Assembly (NCBI GenBank): GCA_017441945.1
Contig: JAFSBG010000181.1
Coordinates: 1-55,786, forward strand
Reading direction: 5' to 3'
Length of the DNA stretch: 55,786 bases
DNA from: Clostridia bacterium
GTDB taxonomy: Bacteria > Bacillota > Clostridia > Oscillospirales > Butyricicoccaceae
Part shown: positions 12,331-54,780 of the stretch, piece by piece
Layout of the letters: each line of letters opens with the position of its first letter
How positions within the stretch are numbered: the stretch's first letter is position 1
Made by a program: the position numbers and the translations under genes
The notes under the pieces: generated by a model
What the model saw: only the letters and a program-made list of their open reading frames with translations
Told to the model about the DNA's origin: nothing
Database searches by the model: none

Positions 12331-12409
12331 TTGAATATTATTGAAAGCTCTCCGCATCCCCCCTCACCAGCCTCCCCTTGTGAGGGGAGTGGTAGTAAAT
12401 GAAGCATAT

Positions 12410-12440
12410 AAGCTCTCCGTATCGGGGAGCTTTTTTCTTT
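12410..12440 (+). terminator. Terminator after trmL
   Basis: AGCTCTCCG and CGGGGAGCT form a stem with a 3-nt loop followed by six T. Confidence 0.75.
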
Positions 12441-12661
12441 TGCACAAGCCTGTAGGGGACCGACGCCCTCGGCGTCCCGCATGATAATGTAGGGCGGGGG
12501 GCTTGCCCTCGCCGTTCCGTGTGAGAATAAATTGTTCCTGTGGAATATTGAGGTATCTGCGACAGGTTTGATAGGCGACAACCCCTCCGTCAATCTTTGA
12601 TTGACACCTCCCCTTGCACAGGGGAGGCAAGAAAAAGGAACGTAATTCTGAGGCGAAAAAC

Positions 12662-12690
12662 GGGGTCCCCGGCGAGCCTGCTCGCTGGGG
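12662..12690 (+). repeat. 29-bp covarying quasi-palindrome, copy 1
   Basis: GGGGTCCCC, variable arm GGCGAGC, centre CT, arm GCTCGCT, GGGG. The arms pair except for one G-T wobble. One of seven copies of identical length in the window. Confidence 0.85.
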
Positions 12691-24981: not shown

Positions 24982-24984
24982 TAT

Positions 24985-25016
24985 AAAAAAGACCACCTGT
25001 AAAAGGTGGTTTTTTA
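24985..25016 (+). terminator. Terminator copy flanking the RAYT gene (left)
   Basis: AAAGACCACCT-GTAA-AAGGTGGT with flanking A and T runs. It ends binding protein 2 and directly touches the RAYT stop codon. A near-identical copy is at 25523-25554. Confidence 0.85.
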
Positions 25017-25508
25017 TTCTATGTAAAAGCAGTCCTTCTGCCAACGGATAACATTAGTGTCGATATATTCCCATATTTGTTTGTAATCACGCTCGCCACG
25101 GATTATATGGTCGTGAAATGAGGTCTGAAATAAATGTTTGTCTTTCAAACCGGCTTTTCTACATTTTATGGTGGTTATCGACTTAAATGCACACACCACA
25201 TCTGATATTGTAGGGCGGGGACTTGCTCCCGCCGTACTAAGCGATATTATCGCGTGTATATGATTGGGCATTATAACATACTTATCAATTTTTACGCATT
25301 GATATCGTAGTTCAAGCAAATTTATCGGTTCGTCGGCAATTTTGCCGTAAACCGAAAGATTATTTTCGGCGAGGGCAAGCCCCCGCCCTACGGTTATGTT
25401 GCCTAAAAGCTGCATCATATCCTTAGTGCAAATCGTCACGAAATATGCACCTGGCATTGAATAATCAAACTGTTTTAGCCGTGGATTTTTCCTTTTCGGA
25501 AATTCCAT
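25014..25508 (-). CDS. REP-associated tyrosine transposase (RAYT), Y1 HUH family
   Basis: A 164-residue single-strand DNA transposase of the IS200/RAYT type. It has the HUH motif MPNHIHAII (His83, His85) and the C-terminal FHDHIIRGERDYKQIWEYID region with Tyr148 as the likely nucleophile (Tyr142 the alternative). RAYTs are single-copy domesticated relatives that act on genomic REP hairpins. Two GC-rich repeats of the local extragenic type are embedded in frame: residues 38-47 (TVGRGLA) and about 91-100 (TAGASPRPT). AAGGAGG precedes the ATG, but only 14 bases separate the gene from the purL terminator, so no promoter of its own is visible. Confidence 0.88.
   Translation of the reverse strand: MEFPKRKNPRLKQFDYSMPGAYFVTICTKDMMQLLGNITVGRGLALAENNLSVYGKIADEPINLLELRYQCVKIDKYVIMPNHIHAIISLSTAGASPRPTISDVVCAFKSITTIKCRKAGLKDKHLFQTSFHDHIIRGERDYKQIWEYIDTNVIRWQKDCFYIE
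25210..25237. repeat. REP-like repeat inside the RAYT gene, copy a
   Basis: A GTAGGGCGGG...CCCGCCGTAC palindromic repeat in the coding sequence, of the same type as the extragenic copy at 12489-12514. It is inverted relative to copy b. Confidence 0.8.
25367..25391. repeat. REP-like repeat inside the RAYT gene, copy b
   Basis: Read on the minus strand it equals the extragenic repeat at 12489-12514 apart from one missing G. Copies a and b could base-pair over about 25 bases in single-stranded DNA or mRNA. Confidence 0.85.
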
Positions 25509-25522
25509 ACTGCCTCCTTACT

Positions 25523-25554
25523 AAAAAGACCACCTGTAAAAGGTGGTCTTTTTA
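25523..25554 (-). terminator. Terminator of purL; second copy flanking the RAYT gene
   Basis: The same AAAGACCACCT-GTAA-AAGGTGGTCTTTTT hairpin as at 24985-25016. It lies 11 bases past the purL stop and 15 bases before the RAYT start. Confidence 0.85.
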
Positions 25555-25564
25555 TGTTTACCTA

Positions 25565-28500
25565 TTATTTGTAGTAGTCTACAGCACCCTTGAAGATGAG
25601 CTGTTCCTGTGTATCAGGTACATTCTTATAGAGGTGGAGACCGTTACGTTCTGTGTGGCCCATCTTACCGAATACACGTCCGTCTGGGGATGTGATACCT
25701 TCGATAGCCATTACAGAGTTGTTAGGGTTGAACAGGATATCGCTTGTTGCGTTGCCGTTAAGGTCGACATACTGAGTTGCGATCTGGCCATTCTTGATGA
25801 GCTTCTTGAGCTCCTTCTCGTTTGCGATGAAGCGGCCTTCACCGTGGGAGATAGCGATAGTATGGATGTCGCCAACATTAGTATGCATGAGCCATGGGGA
25901 CTTGTTGGAAGCGATTCTTGTATGAACAAGGCGGGACTGATGTCTGCCGATTGTGTTGAATGTGAGTGTTGGGTTGTTTTCGTTTGGCTCAACAATCTTG
26001 CCGTATGGAACGAGACCGAGCTTTACGAGTGCCTGGAAGCCGTTGCAGATACCGCACATAAGACCGTCACGCTTATTAAGGAGAGCACGGATTTCCTTTG
26101 CAACACGTGGGTTTCTGAGGAGGGAAACGATGAACTTTGCAGAGCCGTCTGGTTCGTCACCGCCAGAGAAGCCGCCAGGAAGAGCCACGATATGGCTGTT
26201 CTTGATAGCTGTTGCAAGACGCTTTGCGCTTTCCTGAACTTCTTCAGGAGTTCTGTTTCTTACAACAAAGATCTCTGTCTTTGCGCCGTACTTTTCAAAT
26301 GCGCGAGCTGTATCGTATTCACAGTTTGTGCCTGGGAATACAGGGATGAGAACGCTTGGCTGTGGAGCCTTGACAAGTGGAGAAAGAACCTTTTCAGCCT
26401 TGTAGGAAAGGTTTTCATAGATCTTGTTTTCTTCGCCGCCTGTTGTTGGATATACAGGTTCAAGTGTTTCTGCCCAGAGCTTTTCAAGCTTTTCGATGGA
26501 AAGAATGTTGCCGTGAACATAGATGTTGTAATCCTTAGTTGTAACACCGATCTTCTTGCCGAAACGAAGAACACCGTCTGTTTCAACTACGAATGCACCG
26601 TACTTCTTTTCAAAGAGCTCTTCCTGAGAAAGAGTATTGACAAGCTTTGCACCGATCTTGTTACCGAATGCCATCTTTGTGACAGCTTCTGCGATACCGC
26701 CTACGCCGACTGCATAAGCAGAAAGGATGCGCTTATCTTCGATAGCCTTCTGGACATTCTTGAATGTCTTGACGAGGGATTCCTTATTGTAAAGGCCGTT
26801 TTCATCCTTTTCAGGCTGGATGAGATAGAGGCTTGTGTCGTTTCTCTTGAATTCAGGAGAAATTACATTGTCAGCCTTAGTTGCGGAAGCAACGAAGGAG
26901 ATAAGTGTTGGTGGAACGTCGATGTCTTCGAAAGAGCCGGACATGGAGTCCTTACCGCCGATAGCGCCGAGACCGAGAGCGAGCTGAGCTTCAAAGCCGC
27001 CGAGGAGGGCTGCAAATGGCTTACCCCAACGCTTAGGGTCCTTACGGAGTCTTTCAAAGTATTCCTGGAAGGAGAGCCATGCATTCTTCATGTCGCCGCC
27101 TGCTGCAATCATCTTTGCAACAGAGGAAACAACTGCATAGTATGCGCCATAATATGGGCTCTGCTGTGCGAGGAATGGGTCATAGCCATAAGCCATGACG
27201 GAAGCTGTATTTGTATTGCCTTCACGGACAGGAATGAGAGCTGCCATAGCCTGTGCAGGTGTCATCTGGCGCTTGCCGCCGAATGGCATAAGCACTGTGC
27301 CTGCGCCGATAGTTGCGTCGAAGCGTTCAACAAGACCGCGCTGGGAAGCAACGTTGAGGCTTGCCATCATATATTCCCAAGCTTCGTCCAGCGGAGCATT
27401 TTCAACCTGCTGTGTAAGAGCATCATTGAGGATTTCAACCTGTGCAAACTTTGTTGCGCCTGCGGAGTTGAGGAAGTCACGGGAAAGGTCAACGATCTTT
27501 TCGCCTTCGTGGAAGATTTCAAGACGGTTTGTATCTGTAACTTCTGCAACAACAACTGCAGAGAGGTTTTCCTTGTTTGCTTCCTTTACGAATCTTTCAG
27601 CGTCCTTAGCTGCTACAACAACAGCCATTCTTTCCTGAGATTCGGAGATAGCAAGTTCTGTGCCTGTGAGACCGTCGTACTTCTTTGGTACTACGTCGAG
27701 GTTGATCTTGAGAGAGTCAGCAAGCTCGCCGATAGCAACAGAAACACCGCCTGCGCCGAAGTCGTTGCAGCGCTTGATCATACGTGTAACCTTGCCGTTA
27801 CGGAAGAGACGCTGGATCTTTCTTTCTTCAGGTGGATTACCCTTCTGAACTTCTGCGCCGCAGGATTCGAGAGATGTTACGTCGTGAGCCTTGGAGGAGC
27901 CGGAAGCACCGCCAACGCCGTCACGGCCTGTTGCGCCGCCGAGGAGGATAACTACGTCGCCGCATTCAGGGCTCTTGCGGATAACATTCTTTGCAGGAGC
28001 AGCACCGATAACAGCGCCGACTTCCATACGCTTTGCTACGAAGCCATCGTGGTAAACTTCAGCAACATGGCCTGTTGCAAGACCAATCTGGTTGCCGTAG
28101 GAGCTGTAACCTGCAGCAGCTGTCTGGCAGATCTTGCTCTGTGGGAGCTTGCCCTTGAGAGTGTCAGCTACAGGTGTGAGAGGATTGCCTGCACCTGTGA
28201 GACGCATTGCCTGATATACATAGCTTCTGCCGGAGAGCGGGTCACGGATTGCGCCGCCGAGGCATGTTGCTGCGCCGCCGAATGGTTCGATTTCTGTTGG
28301 GTGGTTATGTGTTTCGTTCTTGAACATCATGAGCCACTTCTGCTTCTTGCCGTCGACATCAACGTTGATCTTTACGGAGCAAGCATTGATTTCTTCAGAT
28401 TCGTCGAGGTTCTTCATGATGCCTGTTCTCTTGAGGTACTTTGCGCCCAGTGTTGCAAGGTCCATAAGAGTACATGGACGGTTCTTGTTAGGATAGAGCT

Positions 28501-53947: not shown

Positions 53948-54075
53948 GGTGCATTCACGAATGCACCGCGGGACGCCGAGGGCGTCGTCCCCTACAGAAT
54001 TTCTGCGAACCGCTGGAAAGATCCTTCACATTCGTTCAGGATGACATTGTAGGGGCGGGTTTCCATGCCCGCCCG
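53948..54075 (+). repeat. Extragenic repeat cluster after the feo operon
   Basis: GGTGCATTC-ACG-AATGCACC (53948-53967), a GGGACGCC...GTCCCCTACA element (53969-53997), a GATCCTTC...GGATGACA repeat (54020-54047) and a GTAGGGGCGGG...CCCGCCCG element (54049-54075). Confidence 0.75.
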
Positions 54076-54098
54076 ATATCGTGTATGTAACACCATTC

Positions 54099-54127
54099 TT
54101 GACTTATGTATGTTTATGATGTATAAT
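54099..54127 (+). promoter_or_regulatory. Promoter of the 2-TM zinc-ribbon gene
   Basis: TTGACT, a 17-bp spacer and a perfect TATAAT, 29 bases before the ATG. Confidence 0.75.
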
Positions 54128-54155
54128 GAAAACATTAAAGAACAAGAGGTAAAAT

Positions 54156-54545
54156 ATGAAAAGACGTTACACGTTAAAGGAAATCGAGCACAAAAGCAAC
54201 ATCGTGCAGACTCTTTTCACCATATATATAATTTGTATGGTGCTTCTGATTGCAACAGGCATCGGCGACCATGGAATTGAGGTCGGTGCACATAAGACAA
54301 ACAATATCGGTAATGGATTTTTCTATCTGATGATTGCTGTCGTCGGCATACTGTCAGCCATTTTCTACGGAATCTATTACTATCTGATGGACGAAAAATG
54401 GGGTATCACAATAAAATGTCCGTATTGCGGAAAATCAATGGATACTGCAAAAATCTCAATCTCTCCTGCCGATGGATTTTTAGGCACACAAACCTGCCAG
54501 AAATGCGGTGAGAAGTTCACTCCAACCTTTAAAGATGCAGAATAA
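54156..54545 (+). CDS. Two-helix membrane protein with C-terminal zinc ribbon
   Basis: A 129-residue protein: a short charged N-terminus, two membrane helices (about residues 18-38 and 54-76), then a cytoplasmic zinc-ribbon-like domain with CPYCGKS and CQKCGEK. No specific family is recognised and the role is unknown. It has its own strong promoter and a terminator. Confidence 0.65.
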   Translation: MKRRYTLKEIEHKSNIVQTLFTIYIICMVLLIATGIGDHGIEVGAHKTNNIGNGFFYLMIAVVGILSAIFYGIYYYLMDEKWGITIKCPYCGKSMDTAKISISPADGFLGTQTCQKCGEKFTPTFKDAE

Positions 54546-54548
54546 ACC

Positions 54549-54575
54549 AAAAGCCACTCGTTTGAGTGGCTTTTA
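54549..54575 (+). terminator. Terminator of the zinc-ribbon gene
   Basis: AAAAGCCACTC-GTTT-GAGTGGCTTTT, nearly the same hairpin as after the feo operon. Confidence 0.8.
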
Positions 54576-54585
54576 TATATTATAT

Positions 54586-54780
54586 TGTAGGGGCGGGTTT
54601 CCATGCCCGCCCGTTGATTTTACATAGCAAGATGTGACAAGCCAAATTGAACAGGCGTTCTGTTTCTTTTCGGGAGGGCGCAGAGACCCTCCCCTACAAA
54701 GATTACATAAATCGGGCGGAAGATTCTTCGGTGCATTCACAAATGTTCCGCGGGATGCCGAGGGCGTCGCCCCTGCGAAT
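54586..54780 (+). repeat. Extragenic repeat cluster before the sigma fragment
   Basis: GTAGGGGCGGG...CCCGCCCG (54586-54613), GGGAGGG...CCCTCCC (54671-54698) and GGGATGCC...GCGTCGCCCC (54750-54775). It reaches the stop codon of the sigma gene fragment. Confidence 0.75.

Follow-up and report, generated by a model that had tools for sequence, protein, structure and literature searches.

The inverted pair of REPs that normally flanks a RAYT lies, in a transposase gene of a Clostridia bacterium and in most of its homologues, inside the reading frame. From comparisons of these sequences we infer that the internal REPs are probably kept as working recognition sites. The gene was found in a DNA stretch of 55,786 nucleotides, which we call the window.

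A RAYT gene with two REPs in its reading frame

The gene (25014..25508, minus strand) encodes a protein of 164 amino acids (P0001), which we characterised by its open reading frame, protein profiles and fold. It matches the Pfam profile of the Y1_Tnp domain (PF01797) with 27.5 bits (cut-off 23, E = 3.6e-6), which places it in the Y1 HUH superfamily. The NCBIfam profile REP_Tyr_transpos (NF047646) also matches it (E = 7.2e-17), yet below the curated cut-off of the model (80 bits), with 51-65 bits for four paralogues. Possibly, these scores are low because the model was tuned to other subgroups. The HUH motif is H83-I-H85 (25254..25262, minus strand), with both histidines invariant in A1 and A2. 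The candidate catalytic tyrosine is Y142 (25083..25085, minus strand), near-invariant in A1 and A2; this assignment rests on its position relative to other Y1 transposases, because Y148 is invariant. Both sites were read from their codons. The closest sequence match in the PDB is the TnpAREP-REP complex 4er8 (E = 2.5e-9, the next match having E = 0.0077). The fold closest to that of the AlphaFold model (mean pLDDT 88) is also 4er8 (Z 12.9, rmsd 3.2 over 129 residues), by a small margin over IS608 (Z 11.7). In both sequence and fold the protein is closer to TnpAREP than to the TnpA of IS200, and the gene is a RAYT/TnpAREP-type HUH transposase gene.

Two REPs are read in frame within this gene, as established from repeat matches, frame and the structural model. 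The REP of slot 1 (25367..25391, minus strand, GTAGGGCGGGGGCTTGCCCTCGCCG) lies on the sense strand of the gene and encodes V40-E48, i.e., V40-GRGLALA-E48. The REP of slot 2 (25210..25234, plus strand, GTAGGGCGGGGACTTGCTCCCGCCG) is inverted relative to the first, lies on the antisense strand and encodes T92-T100, i.e., T92-AGASPRP-T100. They have respectively one and two mismatches to a common 25-mer, which should not be matched anywhere in the window by chance, and the HUH motif lies between them. Each consists of a GTAG foot followed by its own hairpin, the hallmark of GTAG REPs (PMC3733652). Coordinates, frame and 25-mer matches thus confirm the original prediction that the gene contains, in frame and on either side of the HUH motif, an inverted pair of the genome's own REP type. 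Of the interval first proposed for slot 2 (25210-25237), the part up to 25234 is repeat and the trailing TAC is not. The single-base difference predicted between an extragenic REP of the same type (12489..12514, plus strand) and an internal copy was borne out: it has one extra G relative to the copy in slot 1. In the AlphaFold model, slot 1 (residues 40-48) is a turn between strands 36-39 and 48-51, upstream of the HUH motif, and slot 2 (residues 92-100) is a loop between the HUH strand (83-90) and the helix 101-118. Since both slots are loops, REPs can be tolerated there.

REPs in the window and in the genome

The genome (2.26 Mb) contains 17 near copies of the 25-mer (none for the control), two of which are those of the RAYT slots. 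In 1.19 Mb (approximately 53% of the genome), we counted 228 GTAGGG hairpins vs 2-13 for permuted 6-mers, an abundance of the kind that is looked for in genomes with RAYT/TnpAREP. A census of the same 1.19 Mb at a slightly lower threshold gave 270 REPs in about 29 crude clusters. There is no general insertion of REPs into the genes of this genome: 208 of the 270 REPs are outside ORFs of at least 100 amino acids. Another 37 lie well inside an ORF, six of them in ORFs with a HUH motif. The RAYT genes are the convincing cases, and the remaining ORFs with internal REPs may be spurious.

In the canonical REPtron the two inverted REPs lie outside the ORF, one on each flank, and here the inverted pair is inside. 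Neither GTAG nor CTAC occurs in the 300 bp below the RAYT ORF, and above it they are found only at 25571 and 25579, where no hairpin was scored. None of the REPs detected in the window is within 200 bp outside the ORF. Further GC-rich repeats accompany the extragenic REP at 12360-12680, e.g., GTAGGGGACCGACGCCCTCGGCGTCCCG near 12451-12480 and CCTCCCCTTGTGAGGGGAG near 12372. A cluster of four GTAG REPs from three families is found near the end of the window (53970-54697).

The internal pair in homologues

The source genome encodes no fewer than five further paralogues or fragments of RAYTs. In the intact paralogues a pair of REPs occupies these two codon positions, with a different hairpin family in each paralogue. 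We gathered homologues from relatives, from genomes across the class and from named genomes, and removed near-duplicates, which left 135 distinct genes. Both slots are filled in 97 of these, slot 1 in 105 and slot 2 in 117, with GTAG pointing outward; the searches were seeded with slot-bearing proteins, which may have raised these fractions. The control search for the reversed orientation found only two and four REPs in the two slots of the 135 genes. Some homologues have one filled slot or none. Homologues were present in 55 of 291 genomes of the class. The internal pair is not an artefact of metagenome assembly, because isolates and complete genomes are included (Gemmiger formicilis, Flavonifractor An10, Geosporobacter ferrireducens and Chakrabartyella piscis). 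Among the sequences sampled, it is the rule of the clade and not an oddity. Collections of plasmids, phages and viruses gave few or only distant homologues. Two contigs filed as viral, which may be bacterial DNA, contain RAYT genes with the internal pair (L282 in MT839559.1, and L283 in IMG/VR).

The outer distance between the two REPs ranges from 161 to 251 bp. The REP of slot 1 is read in the GTA frame in 96 of 98 genes, whereas that of slot 2 is read in three frames (83, 22 and two genes); slot 2 was therefore filled or shifted more than once. Homologues with short slots free of REPs exist (L082, L281), which supports the view that the two segments are insertions. The slots may also be much longer. 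In L264 (G067:C53, 359-725) slot 1 is swollen to an in-frame tandem array of 8.7 copies with a period of 42 bp, and in L259 (G281:C50, 355-488) slot 2 has grown into an in-frame array of 2.6 copies of 51 bp. One open frame (L274, G067:C14) joins two RAYT genes of unlike REP type, each with its own pair of slots, and could be a fusion or an effect of assembly.

Selection on the DNA of the slots

When the slots were recoded with synonymous codons, the mean hairpin score was 1.9 per slot, vs the observed 6.1 in slot 1 and 6.6 in slot 2 (first set, 118 genes). The valine of slot 1 is encoded by GTA in 106 of 107 genes, vs 27% of valines elsewhere in the same genes. The original prediction was open to challenge from homologues encoding the same peptides without the repeat. 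Such cases are not what we found, the Val-Gly of slot 1 being written GTAGGG or GTAGGA in 106 of 107 genes.

There are dozens of REP sequences across the genes, and within a gene those of the two slots match. The similarity between slots 1 and 2 within genes is 0.892, vs 0.536 when the pairs were permuted (sd 0.014; the maximum of 10,000 permutations was 0.590). At the stem positions where the two REPs of a gene differ, we counted 38 compensatory double changes vs 23 one-sided ones. In REPs with a loop of type C, stem positions 7-9 show three to four types of Watson-Crick pairs with 95-100% pairing, and a nearby G.A/A.G mismatch stays unpaired in about nine of ten sequences. The loop types (A-G), which we assigned with motif rules written by hand and in a few cases manually, track the protein tree built on 141 columns with the slots masked (16 changes vs 66.6 when shuffled). 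REPs near a gene also resemble its internal REP (0.765 vs 0.581 permuted, maximum 0.657). If internal and extragenic REPs are exchanged, the covariation of the internal copies could partly be inherited from the latter. Recognition by TnpAREP has been shown by test to depend on GTAG plus a loop or a bulge (PMC8266576), and the conserved foot, loop type and mismatch match this biochemistry. On the evidence of codons and covariation, the internal REPs are selected at the DNA level.

Probably one pair, inside or outside the gene

RAYTs were described as always flanked by two inverted REPs (Nunvar 2010, PMC2817692). We found a REP in the same (plus) orientation within 200 bp upstream in 15 of the 28 genes with an empty slot 1, vs 10 of the 102 with a filled one (Fisher p = 2e-6, the genes being unweighted for relatedness). 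A REP just upstream is also found in 14 of the 102 genes with a filled slot 1. When slot 1 is empty, the upstream REP is usually of the family of slot 2, and the two are identical in, e.g., L094, L113, L144, L149 and L152. All three layouts occur: both REPs are external in L099, one is external and the other internal in L113, and both are internal in most genes. We read this pattern of sequences as one inverted pair that may be located in the flank or within the reading frame; the tree is unrooted and implies no direction.

The site of the gene in the window suggests movement. A terminator-like inverted repeat lies downstream of the gene (24984..25015, no strand assigned) and shares a core of 25 bp with a second copy upstream (25523..25556, no strand assigned). 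A 20-mer core of both copies has only these two occurrences in 1.19 Mb of the source genome. In a relative (G001), a single terminator and no RAYT lie between the gene of an ABC-type substrate-binding protein and purL (putative names, from translations), which are the neighbours of the RAYT gene in the source genome (G000). In another relative (G002), a different RAYT (60% identical) adjoins purL and an 87% homologue adjoins the ABC gene. This suggests that the gene moved at this site, in one case that proves nothing on the mechanism. In G002 the ABC gene and purL are separated, each ending at a different RAYT (L278, L032), possibly by rearrangement at RAYT loci or by an effect of binning. We also considered a shuffling of modules between paralogues at the REP slots. 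It was hinted at by protein segments, and we rejected it since no pair of genes had high DNA identity on one side of a slot and low identity on the other.

How the internal REPs may work

The two REPs lie in permissive loops before and after the HUH motif, with their GTAG feet outward, so that each DNA strand of the gene presents one REP. The protein would bind and cleave the slot hairpins as single-stranded DNA, by analogy with TnpAREP of E. coli. The gene would then form a REPIN-like unit by itself and, through linkage, act as a donor for the REPs of the genome, so that enzyme and substrate would stay matched through duplications or moves of the gene. The internal pair brackets just the central part of the gene, and hence cannot mobilise all of it in the manner of a transposon. 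More tentatively, and at a little less than an even chance, the pair may be working element ends overlaid on the coding sequence. The loops of the enzyme would then be translated from its own recognition sites, and the genes would be linked source copies that seed and re-match the REP families of each genome.

REPs spread by RAYTs might instead have landed passively in two tolerant surface loops and been kept similar by recombination with other copies, the internal ones having no role. Both slots are loops in our model, slot 2 was filled or shifted repeatedly (frames 83/22/2), and the slots of L264 and L259 could grow into in-frame arrays. The main text of Quentin 2018 (PMC6006769) takes this view of the intragenic REPs of TnpAREP subclass 2.4, seeing them as peripheral loops of little consequence. 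Idle copies are, however, not expected to show the near-fixed outward orientation, nor the GTA frame of slot 1 in 96 of 98 genes. Matched families, compensatory stems and exchange with upstream REPs are not expected of them either. We therefore regard passive insertion as unlikely, if still the best of the alternatives to working recognition sites.

Control of the gene by its own RNA is more doubtful still. The original prediction included a long-range hairpin of 25 bp that might limit expression. By pairing in the mRNA, the two repeats could limit translation or stabilise the message, as could the hairpin of slot 1 by itself. The long stem is predicted by folding the mRNA segment (-88.5 vs -54.4 kcal/mol for shuffles, z = -8.3), and in 91 of 92 genes the predicted cross duplex is stronger than the local hairpins of both slots taken together. 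Yet evolution does not conserve it. The compensatory changes (38, vs 23 one-sided) occur within each slot, where they preserve the local hairpin and break the cross stem, which contradicts the long stem as a conserved structure, and we treat it as a consequence of two matching inverted REPs. The long stem may have an effect on expression. Besides, the GTAG foot, the loop type and the mismatch are conserved, although a mere stem does not need them, and where slot 1 lacks a REP, another that lies upstream of the ORF takes its place.

Finally, it is extremely improbable that the repeats in the DNA are a by-product of loop peptides required for their amino acids. This idea, prompted by recurring peptides such as VGxG..P and G.SP.PT, was rejected on the recoding and codon tests: synonymous recoding destroys the hairpins, codon choice in slot 1 is fixed with REP codons at 106 of 107 Val-Gly sites, the peptides vary widely between REP families, and the slots are short or empty in some homologues.

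These genes bear on how REPs spread and how RAYTs stay matched to them, for here the enzyme and its presumed substrate form a single sequence. Numbering well over a hundred, mostly from gut Clostridia and with dozens of REP variants, the genes make a ready set of matched enzyme-substrate pairs, in which natural covariation has already separated the candidate specificity features (foot, loop and mismatch) from the freely varying stem. They also warn that what looks like a loop peptide in an annotated transposase can be a disguised DNA element.

Comparison with known systems

In-frame REPs inside tnpAREP genes have been described as predominant in, and unique to, TnpAREP subclass 2.4, which the main text of Quentin 2018 (PMC6006769) maps to RAYT group 4 of Bertels 2017. 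According to that text, the insertions are generally between HuH and Y, and the taxa are mainly Cyanobacteria and Bacteroidetes. As far as the main text goes, it already covers slot 2 in kind. The genes described here resemble subclass 2.4, or RAYT group 4, in having REPs in frame. They differ from subclass 2.4 as described there by the matched inverted pair, the slot upstream of the HUH motif, the matching gene by gene and the exchange with flanking REPs. In openly available main texts we found no prior description of the upstream slot, of the matched inverted pair, of the codon and covariation evidence or of the exchange between inside and outside. Our searches for literature on these repeats or on RAYTs in Clostridia returned nothing relevant.

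The system shares with the canonical REPtron (Nunvar 2010, PMC2817692; E. coli TnpAREP, 4er8) the Y1 HUH transposase, the fold, the inverted pair of GTAG REPs and the REPs scattered in the genome, but in the REPtron the pair flanks the ORF and here both REPs are inside. As in REPINs or BIMEs (Bertels and Rainey 2011, PMC3116915), two inverted REPs form a unit, but what separates them here is the catalytic core of a transposase. The intragenic GTAG REPs of Di Nocera 2013 (PMC3733652) are likewise read in frame; they lie at varied sites of unrelated genes (uvrA, dnaE), whereas those described here occupy fixed slots of the cognate transposase.
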